64,000 nucleotides of DNA from Bryobacterales bacterium (lineage in GTDB: Bacteria > Acidobacteriota > Terriglobia > Bryobacterales > Bryobacteraceae), in the NCBI GenBank assembly GCA_947446025.1, contig CANFEY010000001.1, forward strand, positions 62,001 through 126,000, given 5' to 3'. Shown here one piece after another: positions 6,249 through 60,861 of the stretch (position 1 is the stretch's first letter; each line of letters opens with the position of its first letter). The notes under the pieces were generated by a model. It was given only the letters and a program-made list of their open reading frames with translations. It was not told the DNA's origin and ran no database searches. Position numbers and translations under genes: made by a program.

Positions 6249-6261
6249 CTAGGGCATCCTA
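6249..6261 (-). promoter_or_regulatory. leaderless-type promoter of the GH5 gene
   Basis: TAGGAT at 6261-6256 on the minus strand, then 7 bases, then GTG 6248. The predicted transcription start falls on the start codon. No Shine-Dalgarno sequence can fit. Confidence 0.55.
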
Positions 6262-6381
6262 CCTAAGTCCACTCTACAGTACCAGCCGATCTCCGCCGAT
6301 GGATGTTGCAGGAAAAAGTTCCGCGCGAAGTTCGGCGGAGCAAGACAGGCCCTTCCGGGCCCGGTTAGGGTTGGAGACGCG

Positions 6382-7083
6382 ATGAAAAAGAAAAACTTAG
6401 TCACACTGCTGGCGATTGCGTTCATGGTGGCGCTGGTGGCGACCGGGATGTTCTACGGGCTCTTCGTTTCCAAACTGAAGAGCAACGGCAGCGGAAAGAC
6501 GCTGGTGGTGGCTGCCCGGCCCTTGGAGGCGGGGACAGTGCTGACCGCCGATGACGTCAAGAGCGTCGCGTGGCCCGCGGAAGAACTGCCGCAGGGCGCC
6601 TACGAGCACTCTGCGCAGGTCACCGGCAAGACGCTTTTCGGGTCACTGAGTCCGGCCGAGCCGGTGCTCGCGGCGCGCCTCGCCTCGGAAGAGGGCGGCG
6701 GCCAAAGCGCGGGCATTCCCACGGGGATGCGTGCCGTCTCCGTTCACGTTTCTGATTCCAGCGGTGTCATGGCCCTGCTGCATGCCGGTCATCGGGTGGA
6801 TGTGCAGGTGATCATCCCGAGGTCGCCGGAGTCTGGTGCACAACTGCGCACGGCCATTGAAGGATTGGAAGTTCTGGCGGTGACCAACAAGCCGGAGCCA
6901 AGCTCGCAGGGCTTCAGTCTGCCGGTGGTGACGCTGCTGGCCAGCCCGTCGCAGGCTGACACACTGGCGCTTGCTGATTCCGGCGCGCGGCTCCGTTTGA
7001 CCCTGCGCAACCCGCTCGATGCTTCTACCCGTTCGCGGGTGCCTCTGACTCTCTCGACAGTGATGCAGACGCCCGTCCGGTAG
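6382..7083 (+). CDS. cpaB: Flp pilus assembly protein CpaB
   Basis: 233 residues. An N-terminal membrane anchor (residues 5-28) precedes a SAF domain (about 38-100, with VAARPLEAGTVLTADDVKSVAWP) and a RcpC/CpaB domain (GMRAVSVHVSDSSGVMALLHAGHRVDVQVI). In Tad systems CpaB/RcpC sits in the periplasm and helps assemble the secretin channel. GGAGA lies about 5 bases before the ATG. It is followed closely by tadB and tadC; the secretin, the ATPase and the pilin are not in this window. Confidence 0.92.
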   Translation: MKKKNLVTLLAIAFMVALVATGMFYGLFVSKLKSNGSGKTLVVAARPLEAGTVLTADDVKSVAWPAEELPQGAYEHSAQVTGKTLFGSLSPAEPVLAARLASEEGGGQSAGIPTGMRAVSVHVSDSSGVMALLHAGHRVDVQVIIPRSPESGAQLRTAIEGLEVLAVTNKPEPSSQGFSLPVVTLLASPSQADTLALADSGARLRLTLRNPLDASTRSRVPLTLSTVMQTPVR

Positions 7084-7089
7084 GTTCCC

Positions 7090-8052
7090 ATGCTGATCAT
7101 CTCCGTACTGGGCTTTTTTGTCGTCATCTTCCTGATGCTTACCATCGTGGTGGCCATCGCATGGATGGCGTTCGTCAAACGCACGGCGGAGGCGGATGAG
7201 GCGGCCCGCGGCGAGGGCGTCCTTGAGCTGGAAGACGGCGACTCGCCGCTCTTTCGCACGCAGCGTCTCAGCACCTTGAACTTCTGGCAGAATCTGCTGT
7301 CCCGTTTTGACTTCATGGATCTGCTGCGCGCACGGCTGGCGCAAGCCGAGCTGCACTGGTCCGTAGGCCGGGTCACGTTGGCGATGCTGCTGAGCGGTAC
7401 CGTGGTCGGCTTGCTGGTGAGCAGCGTTTTCCCCTCATGGGCGGCATTTGCAGTGGGTGTAGCGGCGGCATTCTCGCCCTACGGCTACATTTTGCGCCAG
7501 CGCGACCGGCGCTTCCGCAAGTTCCGCGAGATGTTCCCGGATGTTCTCGATTCGCTGGCGCGCGCGCTGCGGGCCGGGTATCCCATCTCCGCCGCGTTTG
7601 AATTGGTGTCCAAGGACATCCAGGAGCCGCTGGCCACCGAGATGCGCCGCGTCTCCGTCGAGGCCAACCTTGGCATGGGATGGCAGCGGGCTCTCGAAAC
7701 ACTCGGTGAGCGGATGCCGTTGCTGGAAGTAAACTTGTTCTCCTCCGCCGTGACGCTGCATGCCCGCACGGGTGGCAAGCTGAACGAAGTTTTGGCCGAC
7801 CTGGCCACCAATATGCGTGAGGCACTGGCCCTGCAAGGCGAAGTTCGGGCACTATCCGCGCACGGCAAACTTACAGGTGCCGTGCTGACCTGCCTGCCGA
7901 TCGGCATCGCCGCGATGATGTTGTTTGTCAGCCCGACCTATATGATGGTGCTGTACAACCACGAGTACGGCAAAGTGATGATCGCCACCGCGGTTGGGTG
8001 TCTTGTCGCCGCTCACTTCGTGATCGGGAAGCTGGTGGATATCAAGTTATGA
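7090..8052 (+). CDS. tadB: Tad pilus inner-membrane platform protein TadB
   Basis: 320 residues. There is a membrane helix at the N-terminus (residues 1-27), two around 95-140 and two at the C-terminus. Between them is the T2SSF domain with the typical FPDVLDSLARALRAGYPISAAFELV and a second half around FSSAVTLHARTGGKLNEVLADLATNMREAL. TadB and TadC form the membrane platform on which the TadA ATPase drives Flp pilus polymerisation. The gene starts 6 bases after cpaB, and its TGA overlaps the tadC ATG. Confidence 0.94.
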   Translation: MLIISVLGFFVVIFLMLTIVVAIAWMAFVKRTAEADEAARGEGVLELEDGDSPLFRTQRLSTLNFWQNLLSRFDFMDLLRARLAQAELHWSVGRVTLAMLLSGTVVGLLVSSVFPSWAAFAVGVAAAFSPYGYILRQRDRRFRKFREMFPDVLDSLARALRAGYPISAAFELVSKDIQEPLATEMRRVSVEANLGMGWQRALETLGERMPLLEVNLFSSAVTLHARTGGKLNEVLADLATNMREALALQGEVRALSAHGKLTGAVLTCLPIGIAAMMLFVSPTYMMVLYNHEYGKVMIATAVGCLVAAHFVIGKLVDIKL

Positions 8053-8972
8053 CGACCACTGCCCTGTTGGTTTCGTTCTTTGTGTTCACGCTGTTTGGCG
8101 TGAGCGCGGCGGGATACTTGTTCGTGCTCAAGCCGGCCAGGGCGGATGGCGATGACGGCGATATCTCCGCGCCCAGCGTCTTGAACCAGCCCGACCTGCC
8201 TGCCCCACAGGCGGCTGTTCTGGATATTTTCAGCATGGTGGGCCGGTTCATTCCGGAGCGCAGTCCGCAGCGGGAGGCCGCGCGAAAGCTGCTGTTGATG
8301 TCCGGCTACCGGTGGCCGTCAGCCGTTTCCACGTTCCTGGGCATCAAATGCTCCACCGCCTTCACGCTCGGGGTTGCCGGAGCTTGGGCCAGCCTCACGT
8401 TTAACGATGGCAACGCAGTGTCGCTAGCCGCAATCTGCGGCCTCGGCTTTGGATTCCTGGCACCTGACCGGGTGCTCGAATACGTGGCTCGATCCCGGGG
8501 CGAACGGCTCCGCCGCGGTCTGCCGGCCGCGCTCGACCTGCTGGTGCTGGCTGTGGAGGCCGGTCAGAGCATTGACTCCGCCATCGCAGAGACCGCACGC
8601 GGCCTGCGCATCGGCCATGCGGACTTGGCCGCCGAATTCACCCAGCTCCACTTGGAACTGCGCGCCGAGGCTTCGCGCGAAGACGCCCTACGCAGCTTCG
8701 CGGCCCGCACGCAGGATCAGGAGATCCGCAAGTTCGCCGCTCTGATCATGGACACGGACCGCTTCGGTTCCAGCCTGGGACCCGCCCTGCGTTCGCATAG
8801 CCACTACCTACGCACCCGCTTCCGGCAGAAGGCTCAGGAGCGTGCCCGCAAGGTGGCCGTCAAGCTAATCTTCCCGGTGTTCTTCCTGATCTTCCCCTCG
8901 GTGATCCTGGTAACGCTGGGGCCGGCCGTCATCCTCATCTTCACGCAGATGACGAAGCTGGTCGGTCAGTAG
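8049..8972 (+). CDS. tadC: Tad pilus inner-membrane platform protein TadC
   Basis: 307 residues, starting at ATG 8049 that overlaps the tadB stop (ATGA). Features: N-terminal membrane helix (3-24), hydrophobic segments around 105-150, the T2SSF domain (GLPAALDLLVLAVEAGQSIDSAIAETARGL, later FAALIMDTDRFGSSLGPALRSHS), a basic RTRFRQKAQERARK stretch and two C-terminal helices (about 275-305). It pairs with TadB in the pilus platform. It is the last gene of the rightward cpaB-tadB-tadC unit and meets the DUF6152 gene tail to tail after two bases. Confidence 0.94.
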   Translation: MTTTALLVSFFVFTLFGVSAAGYLFVLKPARADGDDGDISAPSVLNQPDLPAPQAAVLDIFSMVGRFIPERSPQREAARKLLLMSGYRWPSAVSTFLGIKCSTAFTLGVAGAWASLTFNDGNAVSLAAICGLGFGFLAPDRVLEYVARSRGERLRRGLPAALDLLVLAVEAGQSIDSAIAETARGLRIGHADLAAEFTQLHLELRAEASREDALRSFAARTQDQEIRKFAALIMDTDRFGSSLGPALRSHSHYLRTRFRQKAQERARKVAVKLIFPVFFLIFPSVILVTLGPAVILIFTQMTKLVGQ

Positions 8973-8974
8973 AG

Positions 8975-9364
8975 TCACTTGCCGGGCTGTTCGTTCGTTC
9001 CCGAACCGCCCAAGAAGAGCTTCTTGCCGTCCTGCAACGTCACGTCGCGGCCATTGGCGCGATTGGACCCGTCCTTGGCTTGATAGCCGTCCACAACCAC
9101 CACCGTGCCCTTAGGCAGTGAATCCTTGTTGATGCCGCGGCGGAACAGCGTGTTCGGGCTGCCGCCCTCGATCATCCAACTGGTGACCGCGCCTGCCTCA
9201 TCCTTCACGTCGATGTGAATCCAAGAATGCGGGTTGATGAACTCGACCTTTGTCACCACGCCGGTCATCTTGATCGGTTTCTTTGAGTCAAATTCCGCGG
9301 AGAAGGCATGATGCGCGTACATCGGCGCAACCGTCAAAAAAGCGGCCAAAGCCCTGTGCATCAT
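8975..9364 (-). CDS. DUF6152 secreted protein (copy 1)
   Basis: 129 residues. A short signal peptide (MMHRALAAFLTVAPMYA) is followed by HHAFSAEFD, the mature start seen in all three DUF6152 copies here. Conserved later parts are VEFINPHSWIHIDV, WMIEGGSPNTLFRRGINKDSLPKGT and VVDGYQAKDGSNRANGRDVTLQDGK. The predicted fold is a small beta-barrel; function unknown. The ATG at 9364 overlaps the stop of the upstream WEGETLVV-family gene (ATGA), so the pair is co-translated. Copy 2 has the same neighbour arrangement, suggesting that the pair was duplicated. Confidence 0.85.
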   Translation of the reverse strand: MMHRALAAFLTVAPMYAHHAFSAEFDSKKPIKMTGVVTKVEFINPHSWIHIDVKDEAGAVTSWMIEGGSPNTLFRRGINKDSLPKGTVVVVDGYQAKDGSNRANGRDVTLQDGKKLFLGGSGTNEQPGK

Positions 9365-10335: not shown

Positions 10336-10345
10336 GAACGTTTTC

Positions 10346-10370
10346 AGCCCCGCCCTTACGGACGGGGCTA
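10346..10370 (-). repeat. short interspersed hairpin repeat, type TAGCCC-CCGTAAGGG-GGGGCT
   Basis: The plus strand reads AGCCCCGCCC-TTAC-GGACGGGGCT, a 10-base stem with one mismatch, between the DUF6152 copy 2 stop and the start of paralogue A. Read on the minus strand it matches the element at 4124-4151 in its core. Confidence 0.6.
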
Positions 10371-10379
10371 TAAGGGCCG

Positions 10380-10793: not shown

Positions 10794-10803
10794 TGTAAAG
10801 CTC

Positions 10804-11775: not shown

Positions 11776-11806
11776 GATCACAGCCTCCCGATTTTTTGGG
11801 TCTAAT

Positions 11807-12823: not shown

Positions 12824-13792
12824 CTACCTTCGGCTGATTCGACCAGCCGGTCCAGCTCCCCAGCACGAATTTCCGGCGGCGCTGAGGGCGTTGAGCGGGA
12901 CGTCATCCAGGGCGCGCCAGGTCAGCCCCGCGTCGAGGGAGATGTCGGACCCGCTGGTGCCCGCGGCGACCCAGGCATCCTGGCAGCGGACCACGGCGGA
13001 GCGGTACCCTCGTGGCACCGGGCCGGACGGGATCGACCATTTTGCGCCATCCCACAGGAGGATGTTGCCGTCTGGAGCTTGCGCCTTGGTGTAGTCTCCC
13101 CCCACGGCAACGCCGCGCGTGCCGGAGAATGCCAGGGAGAAGATCCCGGCCCCTTCTCCAGCAGACCGGATAGGGGTTCGGACCCCGTCCCAAGTTTTCC
13201 CGCCGTCCATGGAATGGAAGATCCTGCCGCCGTTGATGCCGCCGGAGGCGAACCAGGCTTCCCGCGTGCCTCGGGTGACCAAGGCTGTCCCGCTGGCGGC
13301 GAACGCGGCCTCGCCTTTTTCAGCCTTGGGGCCTTCCTGCGCCACCCACGTCGCCCCGTCGCTGGTGGTCAGGATGGTGAACCGCCCGTCCACGGGATCG
13401 CCCATGAGGATGCCGTGGGTGGCGTCCCACAAGGCCAGCGAGTCCCAGAAGCCTTCCACTCCGTTGGCGCGCAGCAGCGTCCAGGAAGCGCCGCCGTCGG
13501 TGGTCTTGTAAATGCGGGATGCCCGGCCCTCCCCGGCGCTCATGGCGAACGCCACGCGGTCACTCAGCGCTTCAATGTCGCGGAAGTCCAGGTCGGCAAC
13601 GCCCGGAGGACCCACGGACTGCCAGGTAGCGCCGTCGGTCGTGCGCAGAATGGTCCCCTTGGTTCCGCTGGCCCACGCCACGCGGTCACTCACCGCGCTG
13701 ATGCCGCGTAGGGACGCAGTGGAGCCGCTTTCCTGCGTCTGCCACGTCTGCGCCAGCGCCACCGAAGCCGTTACCAAGAAGATTCGCCACAC
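12824..13792 (-). CDS. YCF48/BNR-repeat beta-propeller protein, secreted
   Basis: 322 residues with a short signal peptide (VWRIFLVTASVALAQ). Repeated blades of the pattern TDG-ATW, TTDGGASWTLL, TSDGATWV, SMDGGKTWDGV and SLDAGLTWRAL are the BNR/Asp-box motif found in YCF48-like photosystem assembly factors and sialidases. Six or seven blades would form a propeller. No catalytic residues can be assigned. The start is GTG 13792, with a -10 box TACAAT 8 bases upstream that overlaps the -10 box of ptrB on the other strand. Confidence 0.82.
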   Translation of the reverse strand: MWRIFLVTASVALAQTWQTQESGSTASLRGISAVSDRVAWASGTKGTILRTTDGATWQSVGPPGVADLDFRDIEALSDRVAFAMSAGEGRASRIYKTTDGGASWTLLRANGVEGFWDSLALWDATHGILMGDPVDGRFTILTTSDGATWVAQEGPKAEKGEAAFAASGTALVTRGTREAWFASGGINGGRIFHSMDGGKTWDGVRTPIRSAGEGAGIFSLAFSGTRGVAVGGDYTKAQAPDGNILLWDGAKWSIPSGPVPRGYRSAVVRCQDAWVAAGTSGSDISLDAGLTWRALDDVPLNALSAAGNSCWGAGPAGRISRR

Positions 13793-13812
13793 AACCCCTT
13801 ATTGTAGAGAGA
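13793..13812. promoter_or_regulatory. divergent promoter with overlapping -10 boxes
   Basis: The plus strand has TATTGT at 13800-13805, 7 bases before GTG 13813 (ptrB). The minus strand has TACAAT at 13806-13801, 8 bases before GTG 13792 (YCF48-like). The two hexamers share five base pairs. Both messages would be leaderless. Confidence 0.6.
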
Positions 13813-15861
13813 GTGACCCCTCCCATTGCAAAGACCGTTCCCGCGTCTGCGACGCTCTTCAACGACACCCGCCAGGACCCCTACGCGTGGCTGCGCAATC
13901 GAGAGGACCCGGACACCATCCCGTATCTAGAAGCCGAGAACGCCTACACCGAGCAGGTGATGGCTCCCACCGCCGCGCTGCAGGCAACGCTCTACGGAGA
14001 AATGCTCGGGCGCATCCAGCAGACCGACGTCACCGTTCCCATCCTCCGCGACGGGTATTTTTACTACACCCGCACCGAAGAGGGAAAACAGTACGCCATC
14101 TATTGCCGAAAAGCCGCCCCCACCCTCGACACTGAACAGCGACCGTCAGGGAGCGGACAGCCCGAACAGATCCTCCTCGACGCCAACCTCCTAGCCCAAG
14201 GCCAGTCCTACTTCCGCGTCGGCAACTTCGTAGTCAGCCCCGACACCCGCCTTCTGGCCTACTCAACCGACGTCCTAGGCGACGAAACCTACACCATCCG
14301 AGTGAAGGACCTGGCAACCGGAGAACTGCTGGAAGACGAGATCCCGAACACCTACTACAGCCTGGAATGGGCCGCCGACAGCAAGACATTCTTCTACTGC
14401 GTGCTGGACGAAGCGAAGCGCCCCTACCAGGTCTTCCGCCATCAGTTGGGCACACCCGCCGACACGCTTGTGCATCACGAGGAAGACGAGCGCTTCACCG
14501 TGGAGGTGGCGAAAACATCCAGCTGGGAATTTCTGCTGATCAACATTCACAGCTCGTTGACCTCAGAGGTGCGCTACATCCCCGCAGCCGATCCGACTGC
14601 CGAATTCACGCCCATTCTGCCGCGCCAGCAAGGCGTTGAGTACGACGTCACGCACCACCATCAGCACTTCTACGTCCGCTCCAATGAACACGCCAAGACG
14701 TTCCGGATCATGCGCCTCCCCGTGGGAGGCGCGGACCGCGAAGAGTTCCTGCCGATGCGCCCCGGCGTCACCGTGGAACACCTGCGCGCCTTCCGCGACT
14801 ACATCGCCATCGAGGAGCGCGATCAGGGCTTGACGCAGATCCACCTCCACCACTTCCCCACCGGCGAGCGCCACCGCGTCGCCTTCGACGAAGCGGCCTA
14901 TCACACCGACGTCACCGGCAACGCCGAGTACGATACCAACCTCATCCGCTTTACCTACACCTCGCTGGTGACCCCGGAAAGCGTCTTCGATTACGACATG
15001 GTCACGCGGACCCGTGAACTCAAGAAACAGGCTCCGGTGCTGGGCTACGATGCGGCGCTGTACGCATCGGAACGCGTGCATGCCACCGCGCCTGACGGCA
15101 CAGCGGTCCCCATTTCGCTGGTTTACAAGAAGGGCTTTGAGCAGAACGGCCGCGCGCCCATGCTGCTCGACGGCTATGGTGCTTATGGGCTCAGCCACGA
15201 TCCGGTATTCAAGCAGGACCGCCTCAGTCTGCTGGACCGCGGCTTTGTCTACGCCATCGCCCACATCCGCGGCGGTGCGGACCTGGGCAAGCCGTGGCAC
15301 GAAGACGGCCGCATGCTAACCAAGCGGAACACCTTTACCGACTTCATCGCCTGCGCCGAGCACTTGATCGCGCAAGGCTACACTTCGTCCCGGCGGCTGG
15401 CCATCACCGGAGGCAGCGCCGGCGGCCTGTTGATGGGTGCCGTGCTGAACATGCGCCCGGACCTGTTCGCCGCCGTCGTCACGCGCGTGCCTTTTGTGGA
15501 CGCCTTGAATACGGAGCTGGACGCGACGCTGCCGCTCACCATTGGCGAGTGGGAGGAATGGGGCAATCCGGCGGAGGAGCAATACTACTGGTACATCAAG
15601 TCCTACGCTCCGTACGAAAACGTGCGCGCGCAGGCGTACCCGGCCATGCTGATTACGGCGGGTCTCAACGACCCCCGCGTTTCGTATTGGGAACCCGCCA
15701 AATGGGTGGCCCGGCTGCGGGCGCTAAAGACGGATTCGAATACGCTGCTGCTCAAAACCGACATGGGGGCGGGGCACTTTGGGGCGTCGGGACGTTATGA
15801 GCATTTGAAGCAGACTGCCTTCAACTTCGCATTCCTGTTACGAACTTTGGGGATCGCCTAA
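13813..15861 (+). CDS. ptrB: oligopeptidase B / prolyl oligopeptidase family (S9A)
   Basis: 682 residues. An N-terminal beta-propeller (about 70-400) covers a C-terminal alpha/beta hydrolase. The catalytic serine is Ser535 in ITGGSAGGLLMG; the aspartate is in GLNDPRVSYWEP and the histidine in MGAGHFGASGRYE. DALNTELDATLPLT is a form of the oligopeptidase B-specific loop. These enzymes cut short peptides after basic residues in the cytoplasm; there is no signal peptide. The start is GTG 13813, 20 bases from the divergent YCF48-like gene and apparently leaderless. Confidence 0.93.
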   Translation: MTPPIAKTVPASATLFNDTRQDPYAWLRNREDPDTIPYLEAENAYTEQVMAPTAALQATLYGEMLGRIQQTDVTVPILRDGYFYYTRTEEGKQYAIYCRKAAPTLDTEQRPSGSGQPEQILLDANLLAQGQSYFRVGNFVVSPDTRLLAYSTDVLGDETYTIRVKDLATGELLEDEIPNTYYSLEWAADSKTFFYCVLDEAKRPYQVFRHQLGTPADTLVHHEEDERFTVEVAKTSSWEFLLINIHSSLTSEVRYIPAADPTAEFTPILPRQQGVEYDVTHHHQHFYVRSNEHAKTFRIMRLPVGGADREEFLPMRPGVTVEHLRAFRDYIAIEERDQGLTQIHLHHFPTGERHRVAFDEAAYHTDVTGNAEYDTNLIRFTYTSLVTPESVFDYDMVTRTRELKKQAPVLGYDAALYASERVHATAPDGTAVPISLVYKKGFEQNGRAPMLLDGYGAYGLSHDPVFKQDRLSLLDRGFVYAIAHIRGGADLGKPWHEDGRMLTKRNTFTDFIACAEHLIAQGYTSSRRLAITGGSAGGLLMGAVLNMRPDLFAAVVTRVPFVDALNTELDATLPLTIGEWEEWGNPAEEQYYWYIKSYAPYENVRAQAYPAMLITAGLNDPRVSYWEPAKWVARLRALKTDSNTLLLKTDMGAGHFGASGRYEHLKQTAFNFAFLLRTLGIA

Positions 15862-15975: not shown

Positions 15976-16866
15976 ATGCGCACCCTCGCCGCCGCCCTGC
16001 TTCTGCCTTTGTTCGCCTTCGGTCAAGCCGAGTGGCGCTTTGCCCACCCGGATGCGACGCTGGTCGGGACCATCCATCCGGTCGCGCTACTGAACTCGCC
16101 TCTGCTTGCATCTGCAATAACTAGTGCGAGCCCCAACGATCCGTCCGCCGCCGCGATGGTGGCGATGGCCAAGGACATGCTCGGCGGGATCAAGGAGATT
16201 CGATTCTCATTGATGGACAACGGTTCGCCGGAGCCGGACGTGGTCGCCGTGATCGATGGGCAGTTCGATGAAGGCATGCTGGCGGCCCTGGGGCAGGCGA
16301 ACGCGAAGTACCGCCGTCTGGACGCCCACACGATTCTGTTCGGTAATGGTCCGTCGCTTGAGAAAGCCGCCGCGCGCGTCGCGCAGACCACTCCCGTACT
16401 ACAGCCGCGCGTGCTGGTCGGCACCGAGCTGCTGGCGGCCTACGACATGTGGATCTCCGGGCGCCTTCCCAATCTTCCGGCTGGACTTCCCGCGCTGCCC
16501 GGCGGACTCAAGATTGACGTGCGTGGCGTGGCGTTGGGCCTGAGCTTCCACGAAAACGTGGAAATGGAGTTGGCGCTGGAGACAGCGTCCGCGGCAGCAG
16601 CGGAAGCCCTGCTCAAGACCGCCCACGACGCCGAGCTTTCGCAGCCGCAGCAACTCCGTGGCGTCCTACGGAGCTTCGCCGATGGCAACACCGCGCGCTT
16701 TCGTATGAATCTTCCTCAGGCTCTGGCGATGGCGGCATTGCGCACCCGGTCCGCTCAGCCGTCGGCCAGCGCTCCTCAGCCTCTGCCGCCTCCCGCGAAG
16801 CCCCGCCGTGCCACGATCCTCATTCAGGGACTGGACGACGGTCCCCGTGAAATTCCTCTGCACTGA
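15976..16866 (+). CDS. secreted protein of unknown function
   Basis: 296 residues with a signal peptide (MRTLAAALLLPLFAFGQ). The mature part looks like an alternating beta/alpha protein; residues 75-110 (IKEIRFSLMDNGSPEPDVVAVIDGQFDEGML) and 175-225 (hydrophobic, then AAAEALLKTAHDAELSQ) suggest a repeated two-layer unit. The C-terminus is Pro/Ala-rich. I do not recognise the family; similar large unknown exported proteins are common in acidobacteria. The 3' end overlaps the convergent HAD gene by 47 bases. Confidence 0.7.
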   Translation: MRTLAAALLLPLFAFGQAEWRFAHPDATLVGTIHPVALLNSPLLASAITSASPNDPSAAAMVAMAKDMLGGIKEIRFSLMDNGSPEPDVVAVIDGQFDEGMLAALGQANAKYRRLDAHTILFGNGPSLEKAAARVAQTTPVLQPRVLVGTELLAAYDMWISGRLPNLPAGLPALPGGLKIDVRGVALGLSFHENVEMELALETASAAAAEALLKTAHDAELSQPQQLRGVLRSFADGNTARFRMNLPQALAMAALRTRSAQPSASAPQPLPPPAKPRRATILIQGLDDGPREIPLH

Positions 16867-17626
16867 GCAGCCCGGGCAGCGCGGCAATCGAATCCAAGAG
16901 GAAACCCGGCTTCACGACACCGTCTTCATCTCCCGCGCGGTACTTGCCCGTCTTCACCAGCGCGCCTTGCAAGCCGGCCTGCTGCGCTCCGCCCACATCC
17001 ACCCGCACATCGTCGCCGACCATGAGCACGTCTTCCTTCGGCACACCCAATCGCCGCACGGCCGCCTCAAAGAACGCCGCCGCCGGCTTGCCCGTCACTA
17101 CCGCCTGTTTTCCCGTCGCGCGTTCCAGCGCCGCCACATAGGGAGCCGTATCCAGCCGCAGCCCATCCGCCGCCTGCCAGAAGCGCGTCATGCCCAGCGC
17201 AATGAGCTGCGCCCCAGGCGTCGACTGCAGCAGCCGGAACGCCCGGTTGAGCGTCCGGAAGTCCCAGCCTTCGCCCAAGTCGCCCACTACCACCCACCGC
17301 GCGCCGGATTCGCGATCTTCAGGCAGCAGTTCCATGCCCGCGAACTCGCCGTGCGTTTTATGCGGCACGAATAAAGCCACTGGACCCGAGTCTCCCATGA
17401 ACTCCCGCGCCGCCACACACGGCGACAGGATGTCCTCCTCGGTGGCCGGAATTCCGAAGCGTGCCAGCTTTTCCACCAACTCGCCCCGCCCGCGCGAAGT
17501 GGTATTGGTCACGAACATATGCGGAATCCCCCGTGCCCGCACCCATGCTAGCGTCTCCGGCGCACCCGGAATCAGCGTTTCGGAGTTGTACACGACCCCG
17601 TCCATATCGAATAGAAGTGCTCTCAT
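16820..17626 (-). CDS. HAD-superfamily phosphatase, class IIA (NagD-like)
   Basis: 268 residues, cytoplasmic. HAD motif I is LLFDMDGVVYN (nucleophile Asp in DMDGV), motif II FVTNTTS, motif III Lys in VTGKPAAAFFE and motif IV MVGDDVRVDVGGAQQAG. The class IIA cap lies between motifs II and III. These enzymes dephosphorylate small phosphates such as p-nitrophenyl phosphate or nucleotides; the natural substrate is unknown. ATG 17626 is preferred because DMDG then lies at the usual distance from the N-terminus and a CAGAAT box sits 6 bases upstream. It is divergent from the DUF3467 gene with only 19 bases between the starts. Confidence 0.9.
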   Translation of the reverse strand: MRALLFDMDGVVYNSETLIPGAPETLAWVRARGIPHMFVTNTTSRGRGELVEKLARFGIPATEEDILSPCVAAREFMGDSGPVALFVPHKTHGEFAGMELLPEDRESGARWVVVGDLGEGWDFRTLNRAFRLLQSTPGAQLIALGMTRFWQAADGLRLDTAPYVAALERATGKQAVVTGKPAAAFFEAAVRRLGVPKEDVLMVGDDVRVDVGGAQQAGLQGALVKTGKYRAGDEDGVVKPGFLLDSIAALPGLLSAEEFHGDRRPVPE

Positions 17627-17645
17627 GCTGGTATTCTGAAATCGC
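17627..17645. promoter_or_regulatory. divergent promoter with overlapping -10 boxes
   Basis: The plus strand has TATTCT at 17632-17637, 8 bases before ATG 17646. The minus strand has CAGAAT at 17638-17633, 6 bases before ATG 17626. The hexamers share five base pairs and there is no room for leaders or ribosome binding sites. Confidence 0.55.
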
Positions 17646-17939
17646 ATGCATCCGCAACAGCCCGCGAAGATTCAATTGTCCAACACTCCTGACTATCGTG
17701 AAGCCTACGCCAACAGCGTCCAGGTCCGCGTCAGCCTGTGGGACTTCTTTCTGTCCTTCGGAACCATCAACCAAACCTCCCCTGACGCGGTGGATATCAG
17801 GAACTATCAAGGCATCTTCCTGAGTCCGCAGCAGGCCAAGGCGCTGGCGAATGTGCTGAACCAGAACATCTCGCAGTATGAGTCCACGTTCGGCGAAATC
17901 CGGCTGGAGCCCAAGCAGGGCGGCGCGGCAATCCAGTAA
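17646..17939 (+). CDS. DUF3467 family protein
   Basis: 97 residues. The sequence fits the small DUF3467 family: YREAYANSVQVRVSLWDFFLSFGTI, then IFLSPQQAKALANVLNQNISQYESTFGEI. The role is unknown; the fold is a beta-sandwich followed by one helix. The gene is probably leaderless (see 17627-17645) and is followed 6 bases later by a membrane glycosyltransferase gene on the same strand. Confidence 0.85.
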   Translation: MHPQQPAKIQLSNTPDYREAYANSVQVRVSLWDFFLSFGTINQTSPDAVDIRNYQGIFLSPQQAKALANVLNQNISQYESTFGEIRLEPKQGGAAIQ

Positions 17940-29640: not shown

Positions 29641-29653
29641 TACACTCAAGCAA
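29641..29653 (+). promoter_or_regulatory. leaderless-type promoter of the 29654 gene
   Basis: TACACT at 29641-29646 followed by 7 bases and the ATG. No ribosome binding site fits. Confidence 0.55.
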
Positions 29654-32133
<2,480 letters not shown>

Positions 32134-32145
32134 TTAATCAGTGTA
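32134..32145 (-). promoter_or_regulatory. leaderless-type promoter of gap
   Basis: TACACT at 32145-32140 on the minus strand, 6 bases, then ATG 32133. No ribosome binding site precedes the start. Confidence 0.6.
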
Positions 32146-32748: not shown

Positions 32749-32760
32749 CTTTAGATTCTA
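32749..32760 (-). promoter_or_regulatory. leaderless-type promoter of dcd
   Basis: TAGAAT at 32760-32755 on the minus strand, 6 bases, then ATG 32748. Confidence 0.6.
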
Positions 32761-34910: not shown

Positions 34911-34922
34911 TACACTGAGGGC
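34911..34922 (+). promoter_or_regulatory. leaderless-type promoter of the antitoxin-like gene
   Basis: TACACT at 34911-34916, then GAGGGC, then GTG 34923. The GAGG could instead act as a close ribosome binding site. Confidence 0.45.
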
Positions 34923-35111
34923 GTGAAGACGCTGCCGTTCAAGAAGGCTCTGAACAAGGGCCCCAGCTTCGACCCCTACCTTGCGGCGGCGAATGAGCGT
35001 GCTCGCCAGGCCGTGCGAAAACTGCAAGAAGCCGGCATCATTGGGAACCGCATTAGAACGGATCTCCCGCCCGCTATGGAAGAGGGTTCCGATAGGGACT
35101 TCGGCGGGTAA
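34923..35111 (+). CDS. small antitoxin-like protein, partner of a zeta toxin
   Basis: 62 residues from GTG 34923. It is rich in charged residues: a helix FDPYLAAANERARQAVRKLQEAGI followed by RIRTDLPPAMEEGSDRDFGG. This type of short protein, ending in RTDLP-x-M-x-G-D-DFGG, precedes zeta-type toxin genes in many bacteria. Its TAA overlaps the ATG of a zeta-toxin reading frame (TAATG at 35109-35113), as expected for a toxin-antitoxin pair. The toxin gene is now broken, so the antitoxin remains alone. Confidence 0.65.
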   Translation: MKTLPFKKALNKGPSFDPYLAAANERARQAVRKLQEAGIIGNRIRTDLPPAMEEGSDRDFGG

Positions 35112-37364: not shown

Positions 37365-37377
37365 TATTCTGCTATCC
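37365..37377 (+). promoter_or_regulatory. leaderless-type promoter of the DUF2278 gene
   Basis: TATTCT at 37365-37370 followed by 7 bases and ATG 37378. Confidence 0.55.
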
Positions 37378-41512: not shown

Positions 41513-41911
41513 CTACTTTCCGTCCGCCACGTTCGCCGAAGTGCCGCCGAACACTTGCTTGCCCCCTGGCAGCGTCACCCGCCGGGCGTTGCCCATTGAC
41601 TTGGTGCCGTCCTTGGGCAAGTAACCTTCCACCGTGACCGTATCGCCGGGTTTCAACGAATCTTTGCGCCAGCCCTGCTTGATCAGCACCGGCAGTGCGC
41701 CCAACTCCAGATTCCAGTTGACGACCTTGCCATCCGCGCCTTTCACGTCCACATAGAAGTGGGCGTGCGGATTCATCCACTCCATTTTGGTGACGGTACC
41801 CGTCAGGGTCATCGTCTTGTTGAAGTCATACTCAGCTTCAAACGAATGATGCGCAGTCAGTGGTAGGGCGACGGCTAGCGCAGCCAGCAAAATGGAAGAA
41901 CGCAAATTCAT
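41513..41911 (-). CDS. DUF6152 secreted protein (copy 3)
   Basis: 132 residues. ATG 41911 is preceded by GAGGAG (41924-41919) at 7 bases and begins a signal peptide (MNLRSSILLAALAVALPLTA). The mature protein starts HHSFEAEYDFNKTMTLTGTVTKMEWMNPHAHFYVDV, then GDTVTVEGYLPKDGTKSMGNARRVTLPGG. It is more distant from copies 1 and 2. It is the first gene of a six-gene leftward operon. A -10-like TACATT at 41937-41932 lies 20 bases before the start. Confidence 0.85.
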   Translation of the reverse strand: MNLRSSILLAALAVALPLTAHHSFEAEYDFNKTMTLTGTVTKMEWMNPHAHFYVDVKGADGKVVNWNLELGALPVLIKQGWRKDSLKPGDTVTVEGYLPKDGTKSMGNARRVTLPGGKQVFGGTSANVADGK

Positions 41912-41931
41912 GAATCGTCTCCTCAGCACAG

Positions 41932-41947
41932 AATGTATCATATCCCC
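41932..41947. promoter_or_regulatory. divergent promoter region of DUF6152 copy 3 and DUF1569
   Basis: Plus strand TATCAT at 41936-41941 is 6 bases before ATG 41948 (leaderless-type). Minus strand TACATT at 41937-41932 is 20 bases before ATG 41911, leaving room for the ribosome binding site GAGGAG. The two hexamers overlap by 2 bases. Confidence 0.5.
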
Positions 41948-42394
41948 ATGAGTACTTTCGCCGACCCGGCCGTCAAAGCCTCCGTCCGCCAGCGCCTCGC
42001 GAGTCTCACGCCCAACGCGGCGCGCCAATGGGGACGGATGACCCCGCATCAGATGGTGTGTCACCTCACCGACGGCTACCGTCTGGCCTCGGGCGAGCGG
42101 ATGCCCAAGCAGATCGACAATTTCTTCAGCCGGTCCGTGATCCGTTGGGTGGCGCTGCACTCCCCGATGGCGTGGCCGAAGGGCGTGAAGACGACTCCCG
42201 AGGCAGATCAGGAGCAGGGTGGTACCAAGCCGGCCGAGTGGGACCGCGACTTTGCTGAGCTGCTGCGGATGCACGATGCCTTCCGCGCCATCGAAGGCAA
42301 CAAGCATCCCATGTTCGGTCTGCTCACCGCGGAAGAGTGGAGCGTGTGGGGCTTCCGCCATGCCGACCATCACCTGCGGCAGTTCGGACTCTGA
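41948..42394 (+). CDS. DUF1569 family protein (DinB-like fold)
   Basis: 148 residues. ATG 41948 is chosen over 41933 because it has TATCAT 6 bases upstream and the longer version would overlap the promoter. The DinB/YfiT-like four-helix bundle is indicated by RQWGRMTPHQMVCHLTDGYRLA (first metal His) and FRHADHHLRQFGL at the C-terminus (second metal-binding pair). Many such proteins bind divalent metals and some are thiol-dependent transferases. The function here is unknown. It is alone between the DUF6152 operon and the ABC ATPase. Confidence 0.82.
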   Translation: MSTFADPAVKASVRQRLASLTPNAARQWGRMTPHQMVCHLTDGYRLASGERMPKQIDNFFSRSVIRWVALHSPMAWPKGVKTTPEADQEQGGTKPAEWDRDFAELLRMHDAFRAIEGNKHPMFGLLTAEEWSVWGFRHADHHLRQFGL

Positions 42395-44593: not shown

Positions 44594-44639
44594 GGAGTCC
44601 ATTATAGCGGGCCATTGTGCGGCAGCTTCCCGAGCTGTC
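44594..44639 (-). promoter_or_regulatory. gatB promoter with upstream hairpin repeat
   Basis: TATAAT at 44606-44601 in CGCTATAAT, 7 bases before ATG 44593 (leaderless). Upstream, the hairpin GACAGCT-CGGGA-AGCTGCC (44639-44621) matches the one before tRNA-Leu at 25100-25118 with one change. Confidence 0.6.
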
Positions 44640-44843: not shown

Positions 44844-44855
44844 TATCCTTAGTCA
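44844..44855 (+). promoter_or_regulatory. leaderless-type promoter of the DUF4097-like lipoprotein
   Basis: TATCCT at 44844-44849, 6 bases, then ATG 44856. No ribosome binding site fits. Confidence 0.5.
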
Positions 44856-45548
44856 ATGAAGCTCTACGCTGGATTGATCACCCTTGTTCTCCTGATCGGT
44901 TGCGGGGCCGCGCGCACGGGTCCCACGCAGCACGAATCGGCGCATTTTGACTTGGACAAGTCCGAGATGACGCGGGTGGAGCTGCGCATGGGCGCGGGCG
45001 AGCTGAACGTCTCCGGCGGTTCGTCCAAGCTGGCCGAGGCGGACTTTACCTACAACGTGGCCAGTTGGAAGCCGAACGTGGACTACCATTCGACCGGCGT
45101 CCGCGGCGACCTGCTCATCGCGCAGCCCGAAGGCAGCGGCGGCTTCGGTGATACGGAGTACCGCTGGGATGTGAAGCTCAACGACGGGTTGCTGATGGAT
45201 GTTGTGACCAAGCTCGGTGCCGGCGACGCGCGCATGAACCTGGGTAGCATGAACCTGAGAAGCGTGGAACTGAACATCGGCGCGGGCGAGGTGACGATGG
45301 ATCTGCGCGGCGCGCCTAAGCGCAGCTACGACGTACGCATCAATGGCGGCGTTGGCCAGGCCACGGTGTACCTGCCGAAGAGTGTCGGCATCGATGCGAC
45401 GGCCAAAGGCGGCATCGGCGAGGTCAACGTACGGGGGCTGGAGCAGCGAAGCGGCCGGTGGGTGAATGCCGCGCAGGAGAACTCCCCCGTAACCATTCGC
45501 CTGGACGTAAAAGGCGGCGTGGGTCAGATCGACATCGTCGCAGAGTAG
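44856..45548 (+). CDS. lipoprotein with toast-rack/DUF4097-like beta domain
   Basis: 230 residues. The N-terminus MKLYAGLITLVLLIGCGAA has a lipobox (LIGC, Cys16). The mature part is built of short repeated strands: VELRMGAGELNVSGG, VVTKLGAGDARMNLG, VELNIGAGEVTMDLRG, RINGGVGQATVYLP and KGGIGEVNVRGL. This right-handed beta-solenoid or toast-rack pattern is that of DUF4097/DUF2154-like proteins, which are often linked to envelope stress control. No partner gene is nearby. Confidence 0.82.
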   Translation: MKLYAGLITLVLLIGCGAARTGPTQHESAHFDLDKSEMTRVELRMGAGELNVSGGSSKLAEADFTYNVASWKPNVDYHSTGVRGDLLIAQPEGSGGFGDTEYRWDVKLNDGLLMDVVTKLGAGDARMNLGSMNLRSVELNIGAGEVTMDLRGAPKRSYDVRINGGVGQATVYLPKSVGIDATAKGGIGEVNVRGLEQRSGRWVNAAQENSPVTIRLDVKGGVGQIDIVAE

Positions 45549-51305: not shown

Positions 51306-51316
51306 ACTTGGCTCCT

Positions 51317-54232: not shown

Positions 54233-54246
54233 AAAGGACCCCAACC

Positions 54247-55488: not shown

Positions 55489-55489
55489 C

Positions 55490-55738: not shown

Positions 55739-55743
55739 ACGAC

Positions 55744-56759: not shown

Positions 56760-57025
56760 CGCCCGCTACCGTAACCGATCTGCTACACAACGCCTTCATG
56801 ACGACTTTCTGGATCGGGCTGCCGGTGCTCGCCGCCGGCTTTGTCATCGGGATCGTAGTGAGTCTGGCTCAGATTCTGACGTCGATTCAAGACTCGAGCT
56901 TCAGCACCGTTCCGCGGCTCACCGTTTTTCTCGGGGTGCTTTTGTTCACCATGCCGTGGATGCTGGCCCGTATGGTCAGCTATACGGCCACACTGTTCGG
57001 CGACTTGGGGCGCTTCGCGCATTGA
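56756..57025 (+). CDS. fliQ: flagellar export gate protein FliQ
   Basis: 89 residues from TTG 56756, which overlaps the fliP stop (TTGA) and has a good AAGGAG six bases upstream. Two membrane helices contain AFMTTFWIGLPVLAAGFVIGIVVSLAQILTSIQDSSFSTVPRLTVFLGVLLFTMPWML, the FliQ pattern. It packs around FliP in the export gate. Its stop overlaps the fliR TTG in the same way. Confidence 0.96.
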   Translation: MTPATVTDLLHNAFMTTFWIGLPVLAAGFVIGIVVSLAQILTSIQDSSFSTVPRLTVFLGVLLFTMPWMLARMVSYTATLFGDLGRFAH

Positions 57026-57786: not shown

Positions 57787-57787
57787 T

Positions 57788-58863
57788 ATGGCGAGCGGCG
57801 GCGAGCAAACAGAAAAGCCTACACAACGGCGGCTGGACCGGGCACGCAAGGAAGGCAATTTCCCGGCCAGCCGCGAGTTCGTGGGAGCGGTCCACTTCGC
57901 CGGCGTCGTGGTGCTGATCTCGATGTTCAGCGGCGATTTTCTAGCGCGGCTCATCCGGCTCACGCGGCACCTGCTGGCGCTCGCATTCACCACTTCGCTC
58001 ACACAGCAGCAATTCGTGACGTTGGCGCGCACGCTCATCGCGCCTGATCTGGTGCCGCTGATCTTCGGCGGCTTCGGACTCGCGGTGCTCGTGATCGCGA
58101 TTCAGCTGGGCAGCACGAAGCTCGGCATTTCGTTCGCCAAGCTCGCGCCCGACTTGAAGCGCCTGAATCCGCTCACGAAAATCACGGGCTTGCCGACGCA
58201 GAATATGCCGGTCTTTTCCAGGCCCTCTTGCTGCTGCCGCTGGTCGGCGTGGTGCTGTACTACGAACTCACGGAGAACTTGAACTCGTTCATGGAGCTGC
58301 CGTGGCTGCATCCCCGCTCGGCCCTCGCGCGAGTTGGACTGACGCTCGAAACGCTGCTGTGGCGGGCCGCGGGATTGTTTCTGCTGATCGGTGTCATCGA
58401 CCTGCTGTGGCAGCGGCACCGCTACACCAAGCAGCTCAAGATGTCGAAGCAGGACATCCGCGAAGAGTCGAAAGAATCCGAAGGCAACCCGCAGATCAAG
58501 GCCCGCGTGCGCCGCATTCAGCGCGACATGGCGCGCAAGCAGATGATGCAGGAGGTTGCCAAGGCCACCGCCATCGTCGTCAATCCGACGCACTACGCGG
58601 TGGCGATCCGCTACGCACTTCCGGGCACTCCGGGCGAAGGCTCGGCTCCGCGCGTGGTGGCCAAGGGCAAAAACTTCCTGGCCGCGCGCATCCGCGAACG
58701 CGCGCGCGAGCATCAGATTCCAATTGTCGAAAACCCGCCGCTTGCGCGCGCGCTGTACAAGTCGGTCGACGTGGGTCAAGAGATTCCCGCTCACCTTTAT
58801 CGCGCGGTCGCAGAAATTCTTGCGTACATATATCGACTGATGAATGGACGCCTACCTGGATGA
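57788..58863 (+). pseudogene. flhB: flagellar export protein FlhB, interrupted by a frameshift
   Basis: Two frames give one FlhB. Frame 2 from ATG 57788 reads GGEQTEKPTQRRLDRARKEGNFPASREFVGA and continues to LKRLNPLTKITGLPTQN, then shifts. Frame 1 takes over near 58210 with LFQALLLLPLVGVVLYYEL and ends at 58863, including the cytoplasmic VVNPTHYAVAIRY (NPTH autocleavage site) and GLARALYKSVDVGQEIPAHLYRAVAEILAYIY-type end. Adding one base near 58208-58212 would restore about 358 residues. Without it FlhB would be truncated before its last helices. A base-calling error is possible. Confidence 0.88.
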
Positions 58864-58924
58864 TTCCTGCAACCAAGCACTGCATCACGGCGTCCAATGC
58901 AGCAGAAGGAGACACTGGACACCC

Positions 58925-59455
58925 ATGAAAAACAGACACGCGATTTCAACGCTTTTCGCCGCCGCCCTGTTGGCGGTCCCCGGTTTCGCATCCCATGGAA
59001 CACCCGCCCCCAACGCCGCGCTGGAAAGCAACGTTCGGCAGGCGATTAACAAGCTCGCCTACTACGGCGTATTCGATGACCTATCGTTCACGTTGGATGA
59101 TTCCGGAGCGGTAACCCTCAGCGGTCAAGTGATGCAGTACTACGTGCGCAATGCCGCCGTGAGCGCGGTGAAGGACGTCGCCGGTGTGACGCGTGTGGAT
59201 GACAAGATAGAAGTGCTGCCGCTATCTCCGTTCGACAACGGCATCCGCATCCGCGCCTACAACGCAATCTTCGGGTACCCCGCGCTGAGCCGCTATGCGA
59301 TCAATGCGCGGCCTCCGATCCGCATTCTGGTGAAGAACGGCAACATCACCTTGGCGGGCGTGGTGAACAATGAGCTGGACCGCACGCTTGCGTACAACCG
59401 GCTCCAGTCGCTTCCCGGTGCTTTCTCGGTAACGAACCAGCTACGGCTCGACTAA
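58925..59455 (+). CDS. secreted BON-domain protein
   Basis: 176 residues with a signal peptide (MKNRHAISTLFAAALLAVPGFA). Two BON domains are visible: about 30-95 (LESNVRQAINKLAYYGVFDDLSFTLDDSGAVTLSGQVMQYYVRNAAVSAVKDVAGVTRVDDKIEVL) and 105-175 (RIRAYNAIFGYPALSRYAINARPPIRILVKNGNITLAGVVNNELDRTLAYNRLQSLPGAFSVTNQLRL). BON domains bind phospholipids or act in envelope maintenance. AAGGAGA is about 13 bases upstream. It lies 61 bases after flhB and has a strong terminator after it. Confidence 0.88.
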   Translation: MKNRHAISTLFAAALLAVPGFASHGTPAPNAALESNVRQAINKLAYYGVFDDLSFTLDDSGAVTLSGQVMQYYVRNAAVSAVKDVAGVTRVDDKIEVLPLSPFDNGIRIRAYNAIFGYPALSRYAINARPPIRILVKNGNITLAGVVNNELDRTLAYNRLQSLPGAFSVTNQLRLD

Positions 59456-59514
59456 GTTCGGGTCCCGGACGCAGTCACCTTCTCCCCGATGCTCGCGGAG
59501 AAACCGGGAACCCC

Positions 59515-59552
59515 ACGGCGGCTCAGGCACCTCCGACCTGAGCCGCCGTTTT
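59515..59552 (+). terminator. rho-independent terminator after the BON gene
   Basis: A perfect 13-bp stem, ACGGCGGCTCAGG (59515-59527) with CCTGAGCCGCCGT (59537-59549), a 9-base loop and a TTTT run. It probably ends the transcript of the BON gene and anything read through from flagellar genes. Confidence 0.85.
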
Positions 59553-59567
59553 CCATGAGCACCGCGC

Positions 59568-59580
59568 TAGAATACAAACG
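59568..59580 (+). promoter_or_regulatory. leaderless-type promoter of the HEAT-repeat gene
   Basis: TAGAAT at 59568-59573 followed by 7 bases and GTG 59581. Confidence 0.6.
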
Positions 59581-60861
59581 GTGAGACTCCTAACGATTTC
59601 CGTCCTAAGCGTCACGCTGTTAGTAGCGCAGCCTGCCACCGACCCCAAGGAGCGCTCGCGCGCGGTCCGCGAGTTGGGCAAGCTCGGCATCGAAGGCATC
59701 GCCGGCATCGCGGCCTACATCCCCGACCCCGCCGCCGAGGTCCGCGTGGAAGCGGCGAAACGCCTCAACGACATCGGCGGCCCCCGCACCCTGCCTTCGC
59801 TCGTCCGCCTCACCTCGGACGCCGACCCGGAAGTCCAGATCAACGCCATCGATGGACTCATCAACATTTTCGTCCCCGGCTACCTGAAGTCCGGGATCGC
59901 GCGCACCACGACGCGCTCTGGCGATGCACTCAAAGTAAAGTTCAACGAACCCGGAGACCTCGTCATCGACGGCTACGTCAACGTCGCTCCCGAGGCCATC
60001 GCCGCCGCCACCGACGTGCTGGCAAAATCGAAGAGCCTCGAATCCCGAGCCAATGCCGCCCGGGCGCTCGGCATCTTCCGCGCAAGGTCGGCGATCCCGC
60101 AACTCAGCGAAGCCCTCTATTCAAAAGACGACCAGCTGATGTACGAATCATTGGTCGCCATCCAGAAGATCCGTGACCCCAACGCGGGCGCAAGCGTTGC
60201 CTTCCTCGTGCGCGACCTCAACGAAAAAATCCAGACCGCCGCCCTTCGCGCGAGCGGCATCCTCCGGGCTAAGCAGGCCGCCCCCGCCATCCGCACCGTG
60301 ATCGACGACAAACCCACGCCGCGCATTCTGCGAGAGGCCGGCGACGCGCTCGCCATGATCGCCGACCCCGCGGACCGCGGCATTTTCCTCCGCTTCCTGG
60401 CAGAGCGAGACCCCTACCTCCGTGGCTCCGCCGCCGAAGGCCTCGCGCGCATCAGGAATCCCGGCGACGCCGAGCGCTTGAACCAGGCCTTTGAAGCCGA
60501 GCGCGAGTTCGGCCCGCGCTTGTCCATGGCCTTTGCGCTGGCTTCACTCGGTCGCTTGGAGATCAACGACTTCAGCCCCTTCCGCTACCTCATTGCCAAC
60601 GGACTCAACCGGGCAATGTTCCGCAGCGTGGCCCTGGCGTACCTAACGGAACTGACCCGCGAGTCCGCCGCACGGCTGACGCTCTACCCAAGCATCGCCC
60701 GTGCCACCAAGGACGAGAAGACCGGCATCTGTCAGATCCTGGCGGAGAGCGGTCAGCAAGACAGCGTGCAGTATGTGGTGGGGTTGAAAGACGACAATGA
60801 CCCCGAGGTCGCGCAGATCTGCCTTCGCAGTCTGCGGACACTCGAGGCCCGTCTGAAATAA
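59581..60861 (+). CDS. secreted HEAT-repeat protein
   Basis: 426 residues from GTG 59581; signal peptide VRLLTISVLSVTLLVAQ. The rest is a solenoid of HEAT/PBS-lyase-type repeats, for example DPAAEVRVEAAKRLNDIG, DADPEVQINAIDGLINI, SRANAARALGIFRARSAIPQLSEAL, KIQTAALRASGILRAKQAAPAI and DPYLRGSAAEGLARIRNPGDAERL. Such proteins are scaffolds for protein-protein contacts. It stands alone between the terminator and a convergent small gene. Confidence 0.85.
   Translation: MRLLTISVLSVTLLVAQPATDPKERSRAVRELGKLGIEGIAGIAAYIPDPAAEVRVEAAKRLNDIGGPRTLPSLVRLTSDADPEVQINAIDGLINIFVPGYLKSGIARTTTRSGDALKVKFNEPGDLVIDGYVNVAPEAIAAATDVLAKSKSLESRANAARALGIFRARSAIPQLSEALYSKDDQLMYESLVAIQKIRDPNAGASVAFLVRDLNEKIQTAALRASGILRAKQAAPAIRTVIDDKPTPRILREAGDALAMIADPADRGIFLRFLAERDPYLRGSAAEGLARIRNPGDAERLNQAFEAEREFGPRLSMAFALASLGRLEINDFSPFRYLIANGLNRAMFRSVALAYLTELTRESAARLTLYPSIARATKDEKTGICQILAESGQQDSVQYVVGLKDDNDPEVAQICLRSLRTLEARLK

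Follow-up and report, generated by a model that had tools for sequence, protein, structure and literature searches.

TANNNT hexamers before start codons support leaderless expression in a Bryobacterales genome, with some boxes possibly shared by divergent genes

In the genome of a Bryobacterales bacterium (GCA_947446025.1), hexamers of the form TANNNT stand directly before the start codons of a sizeable minority of genes, where they very probably act as -10 boxes giving leaderless transcripts that are read directly by the ribosome. Leaderless expression in this genome is well supported in silico, and the geometry of some divergent pairs suggests that one -10 box is used by two leaderless genes. 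The window is a 64,000-nt stretch (contig CANFEY010000001.1, 62,001-126,000), which together with 40 stretches outside it makes up the 864 kb of this genome that were sampled. Start codons were picked from codon use and start-codon type only, with the upstream DNA ignored (blind starts); the gap is the number of bases from the end of the box to the start codon, and the background for TANNNT counts was taken from gaps 30-71 upstream or, separately, from dinucleotide shuffles. Per-gene P(leaderless) comes from a mixture model, with P >= 0.5 as the threshold for a call, and Thermus (known to be leaderless) and Anoxybacillus (leadered) served as positive and negative controls, respectively.

The first-pass annotation of the window had held that such hexamers 6-8 bases before start codons should be rare by chance, a claim that the window bears out weakly and the genome sample decisively. 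With blind starts, 7 of the 67 window genes have TANNNT at gap 6-8, which ranks 2 among 60 composition-matched patterns, as do 6 of the 35 first-in-unit genes, where it is tied first among the patterns; by itself, the window thus exceeds chance only weakly. Across the 864 kb sample, 72 of 741 genes carry TANNNT at gaps 6-8 vs 18.0 expected from gaps 30-71 (Poisson P = 8e-22), and against shuffled upstream sequence the count is 71 vs 15.6 in 743 upstream regions. Outside the window, TANNNT comes first among the 60 patterns in the 40 stretches (65 of 674 genes), the others forming a background with a mean of 21.3, an sd of 6.9 and a maximum of 50. The strict excess corresponds to only ~7% of the genes in the sample, and the leaderless fraction of 22.7% given by the mixture model is an upper bound, because Anoxybacillus also yields 16.1%, with a meaningless motif. 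Heads of divergent units are richest in the leaderless signal (0.35 vs 0.15 for tight same-strand genes). A same-genus and a same-order genome both have the TANNNT excess, which is strongest in Thermus (ratio 13.7; 38.6% of genes fitted) and absent by the same procedure in Anoxybacillus (ratio 0.7; fitted motif degenerate). Orthologues of nfo were matched in 51 of 61 genomes and read in 21; counting this genome's own, 12 of these 21 have [TC]ANNNT with varying middles at gap 6-9, and the other 9 have no box at these gaps.

A free fit of the motif settles on TAnaaT at gaps 6-7 (base weights T.77 A.89 C.35 A.56 A.50 T.97); its preferences are TAtaaT-like and strongest at positions 1, 2 and 6, as expected of a sigma-70-type -10 box. 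The absence of a clear -35 box, already remarked on in the window, holds for the sampled genome: TTGACA-like sequences 15-19 bases upstream are not significantly enriched (19 of 103 genes vs 14.5 expected). A G at -14, two bases upstream of the hexamer, is found in 61 of 103 genes. Shine-Dalgarno (SD) signals, described as missing before the first-pass genes, are scarce before box-bearing starts (3/50 vs 69/332 among first-in-unit genes of the sampled genome). Like published TA-led genes, those of the host have a TANNNT-like signal ~10-12 bases upstream, above the shuffled background, and few SD signals. In the model we propose, the hexamers would be -10 elements of housekeeping-type promoters, bound by RNA polymerase without a recognisable -35 and probably with the aid of the G at the extended -10 position. 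Transcription would begin ~7 bases downstream, at or within 1-2 bases of the start codon, and the ribosome would take the 5'-terminal AUG or GUG of the leaderless transcript directly, a mode that would serve a sizeable minority of genes and most frequently those heading divergent units. Position, motif, the few SD signals, the lack of a significant -35, the controls and some of the upstream regions of orthologues agree in supporting the leaderless interpretation first made for the window, as far as sequence can speak to it.

All 14 hexamers named by the first-pass annotation were located at its start codons and spacings; the CAGAAT of HAD is not strictly TANNNT. Ten of the 14 genes have P(leaderless) >= 0.5, GH5, HAD and an ORF at 34923 do not stand and ptrB is ambiguous; the gene list is somewhat inflated, and its claim that every gene opens a unit fails for gap, which follows dcd on the same strand at a distance of 42 bases. 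On the forward strand, TACACT (29641..29646) precedes the gene at 29654 (gap 7; P 0.99), TATTCT (37365..37370) the DUF2278 gene (ATG 37378, gap 7; P 0.64), whose Pfam match begins at residue 1 of both protein and model, TATCCT (44844..44849) a toast_rack/LiaF-like gene at 44856 (gap 6; P 0.96), and TAGAAT (59568..59573) a HEAT-repeat gene (GTG 59581, gap 7; P 0.93). Also on this strand, the box of the DUF1569 gene (ATG 41948, gap 6; P 0.91) lies in TATCATA at 41936..41942, a heptamer of both strands. It can also be read toward the divergent DUF6152 gene with its GTG at 41929; the start of that gene is more likely the ATG at 41911, behind GAGGAG. On the reverse strand, boxes precede gatB (TATAAT, 44601..44606; ATG 44593, gap 7; P 0.96), dcd (TAGAAT, 32755..32760; ATG 32748, gap 6; P 0.94) and gap itself (TACACT, 32140..32145; ATG 32133, gap 6; P 0.98). 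Aligned gap orthologues mostly have, by eye, an AGGAG-type SD instead of the box, and a change of gap from SD-led to leaderless expression seems to have taken place in this genome. The TACACT at 34911..34916 (+) precedes a 62-codon ORF unsupported as a gene, being neither called as one nor matched in a Pfam search.

Two further divergent pairs of the window surround heptamers that can be read on both strands. The symmetric TATTGTA at 13800..13806 reads as TATTGT toward the ptrB-like prolyl oligopeptidase gene (13813..15861, +; PF02897, PF00326; GTG 13813, gap 7) and as TACAAT toward the YCF48-like gene (PSII_BNR; 12824..13792, -; PF14870, E 3.5e-7; GTG 13792, gap 8). The latter has a P(leaderless) of 0.82 and an in-frame TAA just upstream of its GTG, and its TACAAT is retained in genome G014, at gap 6. 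TATTCTG at 17632..17638 gives TATTCT for the DUF3467 gene (17646..17939, +; PF11950; gap 8; P 0.57), with box and spacing retained in G014, where the upstream flank differs, and a weak CAGAAT for the HAD hydrolase gene (16820..17626, -; PF13344; start 17626, gap 6; P 0.15), whose leaderless start at 17626 is backed by neither the blind nor the mixture calls. Relative to the old box, the starts of ptrB and HAD are spaced differently in G014. For GH5, and perhaps ptrB and HAD, the likelier account is that TA-rich hexamers stand there by chance and that the genes are led by an SD or transcribed with a leader from other promoters. The TAGGAT of GH5 (6256..6261, -; GTG 6248, gap 7) is not upheld (P 0.03) and is absent in G014 although the flanking bases are retained, as is TGTAGAGT further upstream. 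For ptrB, the blind start equals that of the first-pass annotation, and the mixture model favours a weak SD reading, which suits the gene better (P 0.18); of 30 ptrB loci, own included, only 4 have TANNNT 6-8 bases before the aligned first codon and 26 lack it there, the aligned first codon often being no start codon. Some 18 of 741 genes would be expected to carry the hexamer by chance, but chance leaves the genome-wide excess unexplained.

A reading that concerns all box-bearing genes, and that we consider unlikely, is that the -10 boxes are real but that leaders of 3-7 bases exist or annotated starts are slightly off, so that leaderless would be an approximate term. The excess does persist at gaps 9-13 (15, 15, 12, 12 and 12 genes vs 6.0), and 23% of the fit weight falls on gaps 9-10, but the mode lies at gaps 6-7, the same as in Thermus. 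That start choice made the pattern, through in-frame TAA/TAG upstream or motif-fitted starts, is largely refuted and very improbable: gap 6 puts TA in frame, and the first-pass starts, chosen by eye, coincide with blind starts in only 7 of 14 genes, but in-frame stop codons do not explain the excess because the out-of-frame gaps 7 and 8 are also enriched (28 and 19 genes vs 6.0 expected each), starts were set from nothing but codon use and the type of start codon, and Anoxybacillus yields nothing under the same procedure.

Genuine leaderless promoters may, in places, be two-sided. In some divergent pairs, such as ptrB/YCF48, a symmetric TANNNTA lies between start codons that are 16-20 bases apart. 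We regard it as possible, though somewhat short of probable, that both genes of such a pair use one palindromic TANNNTA, flanked on either side by a start codon at 5-8 bases, so that 16-20 bases would hold the complete promoter together with the two translation starts, the genes competing or being balanced by flanking bases, and that such pairs arise and vanish quickly. A conditional spacing test, applied after pairs had already been seen, gives 8 shared-geometry loci vs 1.5 expected jointly in 864 kb of the host genome. The same test finds no excess of shared geometry in samples of Thermus (400 kb; 4 distinct loci vs 5.2 expected) or of the relatives G010 and G040. The pattern CAY-N4..7-TANNNTA-N4..7-RTG is present at the host's own nfo locus and in 0/20 relatives, upstream of its own ptrB and in 0/29 relatives, and at 0/30 HAD loci; shared-box pairs would come and go fast, because relatives do not keep them. 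In one ptrB relative, a match lies inside the gene region.

Raw pattern counts were rejected as proof of bidirectional leaderless promoters, the reversed control not holding start codons constant. In 61 Deinococcota genomes, CAY-N5..7-TANNNTA-N5..7-RTG occurs 1072 times vs 417 reversed (more often forward in 51 genomes, less often in 9, equally in 1), and in Thermus composti 20 times vs 1; among the 15 of these 20 matches that were read, coding lies on both sides in 7, on one side in 7 and on neither in 1. Given the result of the conditional test in Thermus, the excess probably reflects mostly one-sided leaderless genes. In the host genome, the relaxed pattern occurs only 35 times vs 27 reversed and the ATG-only pattern 14 vs 6, and 20 loci read have coding on both sides (7), one side (11) or neither (2); over 149 acidobacterial genomes, the ATG-only pattern is mixed and not decisive, as it is in a 14-genome set. 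Compared with 15 other palindromic cores, TANNNTA scores 8 vs 13 summed over the 15 in the host genome, and 5 vs 2 in 110 divergent pairs with starts set by codon use. As a case for sharing this comparison is overstated, because one-sided leaderless genes enrich TA cores too, and the conditional test is the fairer one. The 23-bp geometry (ANNNTANNNT) gives 1 vs 1 in the host genome and 3 vs 2 in Thermus.

Leaderless genes in the phylum are already published: Acidobacteria are on the list of Zheng et al. 2011 (PMC3160421), with TA-led leaderless genes predicted in 3/3 genomes and 13.3% of genes (9.7-19.4). The likeness extends to the first T of TANNNT, ~12 bases upstream of the start, and to high-GC genomes; the host belongs to another lineage of the phylum. 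In Deinococcus-Thermus, the same motif adjoining the ORF was experimentally shown to act as a -10 region (PMC12340547), whereas the host has a smaller gene fraction; the main text of that article has no word starting with divergent, bidirectional, palindrom or symmetr. For E. coli, Warman et al. (PMC12825309) described bidirectional promoters in which one symmetric -10 is read on both strands, with 18 bp as the commonest distance between transcription start sites (TSSs), the equivalent of two start codons 17 bases apart, each at gap 6. The word leaderless is absent from the text of that article, whereas the same geometry here would put both start codons at the TSSs.

The literature searched contained no transcription-start map for Acidobacteriota, and the present analysis would add one more lineage of this phylum to those with leaderless expression. 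In genomes of this kind, a -10 model should be used alongside an SD model for calling gene starts. If boxes are shared, RNA polymerase would load in one direction at a time, so that the two genes compete or flanking bases balance them, and neither a leader nor a separate operator would fit between paired genes. The compact divergent pairs are direct test objects for one -10 box serving two leaderless genes.

The window covers bases 62001–126000 of contig 1 in a draft genome of 4.43 Mb (99.9% complete) and has a GC content of 60–64% throughout. Its gap protein has its nearest named relatives in a MAG of the Bryobacteraceae (80% identity) and in SZAS-9, an acidobacterial MAG (79%); on this basis the organism probably belongs to Acidobacteriota, near Bryobacteraceae. 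The genome sample of 864 kb was made up of the window and 40 stretches, each 20 kb long, taken from 20 further contigs. It yielded 767 genes and 741 upstream regions that could be used; starts were called from codon preference and start-codon type only, with upstream DNA ignored. Counts of TANNNT ending 6, 7 or 8 bases ahead of the start codon were 25, 28 and 19, compared with an average of 6.0 for each position 30–71 bases away (ratio 4.0), and a count against dinucleotide-shuffled upstream sequence likewise gave an excess (71 observed, 15.6 expected). The strict excess amounts to about 54 of the 741 genes, or 7%. TANNNT was also compared with the other ways of placing T, A and T in a hexamer (60 patterns in all). 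In the 40 stretches that exclude the window it came top (65/674; other patterns: mean 21.3, sd 6.9, maximum 50), as it did among their first-in-unit genes (45/347). The first-pass annotation had held that this spacing should be rare by chance; this stands in the 864 kb sample, whereas the window alone is suggestive, not conclusive, because there TANNNT ranks second overall (7/67) and joint first among first-in-unit genes (6/35). Upstream in-frame stop codons were rejected as the source of the excess, since the TA is out of frame at distances of 7 and 8 bases.

The same procedure, applied to 400 kb sampled from each comparison genome, gave a ratio of 3.1 for a genome of the same genus, 3.0 for one of the same order and 13.7 for Thermus composti, whose many leaderless genes are already known; Anoxybacillus had no TANNNT excess (ratio 0.7). 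A mixture model in which the hexamer, the Shine-Dalgarno (SD) motif and the choice of start were all left free, initialised from TANNNT, settled in the window’s genome on T.77 A.89 C.35 A.56 A.50 T.97, with distances of 6–7 bases favoured. It assigned 38.6% of Thermus genes to the hexamer class and 22.7% of 749 genes of the window’s genome, the latter being an upper bound because in the Anoxybacillus fit the motif dissolves and the class still takes up 16.1%. For comparison, Zheng et al. (PMC3160421) report a share of 39.4% in Deinococcus-Thermus and of 13.3% in Acidobacteria.

Leaderless transcription, the interpretation originally placed on these hexamers, is supported in silico, and its two accompanying observations carry over to the larger sample: box-bearing starts seldom have a ribosome binding site, with an SD tetramer in 3 of 50 box-bearing first-in-unit genes versus 69 of 332 others, and no clear -35 box emerges from an alignment on 103 confident boxes (19 versus 14.5 expected). 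These 103 boxes have a G two bases upstream of the hexamer in 61 cases (background 0.31) and are followed by A-rich sequence. In the window’s genome the hexamer class is most frequent in divergent genes (0.35) and least so in genes whose same-strand neighbour lies no more than 30 bases away (0.15), and GTG makes up 26% of the leaderless starts of the mixture model.

All 14 hexamers named at the outset are present at their start codons and distances, and starts chosen without upstream DNA coincide with 7 of the 14. Pfam supports the names GH5, YCF48-like, S9 peptidase (ptrB), DUF3467, HAD, DUF2278, DUF1569 and gatB, and those of dcd and the HEAT gene were likewise confirmed; the gene at 44856 encodes a toast_rack/LiaF-like protein, and the ORF at 34923 has no Pfam match and was not called as a gene. 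The mixture model, fitted on a gene set containing these same genes, gave probabilities of being leaderless of 0.99 (29654 gene), 0.98 (gap), 0.96 (gatB and the 44856 gene), 0.94 (dcd), 0.93 (HEAT gene), 0.91 (DUF1569), 0.82 (YCF48), 0.64 (DUF2278), 0.57 (DUF3467), 0.18 (ptrB), 0.15 (HAD) and 0.03 (GH5). The PQQ gene (35356, distance 10), listed earlier as a weaker case, reached 0.79. Four more starts, at 5328 (-), 21515 (+), 61092 (-) and 62171 (-), have fitted boxes at distances of 7, 9, 9 and 10 bases (0.79–0.93).

Upstream regions in relatives differ from gene to gene. For DUF3467, box and spacing are identical in the relative G014 amid a different upstream flank. The GH5 hexamer is missing there while adjoining bases are retained, which argues against the GH5 box; TGTAGAGTGGACTTAGGTAGG (6256–6278, minus strand) is conserved with G014 and may contain both the true -10 (TAGAGT) and the SD-like AGGTAGGA. 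The ptrB loci lend little support, because TANNNT lies 6–8 bases before the aligned first codon in only 4 of 30 (own included), and frequently no start codon stands at that place. In an order-level genus, TAGNCT precedes an in-frame ATG by 6–7 bases in all 11 genomes with the HAD locus (counted by eye), close kin treated as one event. Aligned gap orthologues mostly have an AGGAG-type SD (by eye), so the initiation mode of this gene seems to have changed in this lineage. For nfo, found via a divergent pair outside the window, 21 upstream regions were examined (its own and 20 of 50 other matching genomes): [TC]ANNNT stands 6–9 bases ahead of the aligned start in 12 and is absent at that distance in 9, the TANNNT middles being TCA, TGA, TTA, CCA, AGC, AAA, GAT and GCA. 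In one orthologue (L316, from the relative G023) a CTG aligns with the nfo start behind TAGCAT at a distance of 6, possibly a CTG start on a leaderless message.

In some divergent pairs, one symmetric -10 box could serve two leaderless genes. The start codons of ptrB and the YCF48-like gene are 20 bases apart, and both boxes are the two strands of the heptamer TATTGTA; those of DUF3467 and HAD are 19 bases apart around TATTCTG, with the HAD side weak and the last base breaking the symmetry. At 8 loci in 864 kb, including the DUF1569 pair, TANNNTA is flanked on both sides by coding ATG or GTG codons at a distance of 5–8 bases. A conditional test, which begins at one leaderless-like gene and locates the divergent coding start, was judged fairer; designed after the pairs were known, and with distinct loci tallied by hand, it found a divergent start 5–8 bases from the same box at 11 loci, where other distances would predict 5.1 (P 0.016), the symmetry-giving trailing A in 8/11 versus 14/47 elsewhere (P 0.012), and 8 versus 1.5 for both jointly (P 2e-4). 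Thermus showed no excess in 400 kb (4 distinct loci versus 5.2 expected), and the same-genus, same-order and Anoxybacillus samples yielded 0 loci, the same-genus genome giving one once TTG starts were permitted. The geometry is kept in 0/20 nfo relatives and 0/29 upstream of ptrB, which lowers a shared box from an even chance to somewhat short of one. Between DUF1569 and the DUF6152 gene (41911–41948) lies TATCATA; the DUF6152 start is more likely at 41911, behind GAGGAG, and the region is possibly a bidirectional promoter with a leaderless DUF1569 product and a short-leadered DUF6152 product using GAGGAG. Further divergent coding pairs surround one TANNNTA at L113 7486/7504, L100 1282/1299, L093 2764/2778 and L120 14538/14557 (positions in sampled stretches), with only 13–18 bases between start codons.

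In E. coli bidirectional promoters, according to PMC12825309, the commonest distance between transcription starts is 18 bp, the geometry of the putative shared box here. Among the matches listed in open-licence literature, none presents in its title or first lines a single -10 box common to two leaderless bacterial genes, and no acidobacterial transcription-start map was among those listed. The leaderless mode itself is already known and was predicted earlier for this phylum; it is the shared symmetric box that merits experiment.
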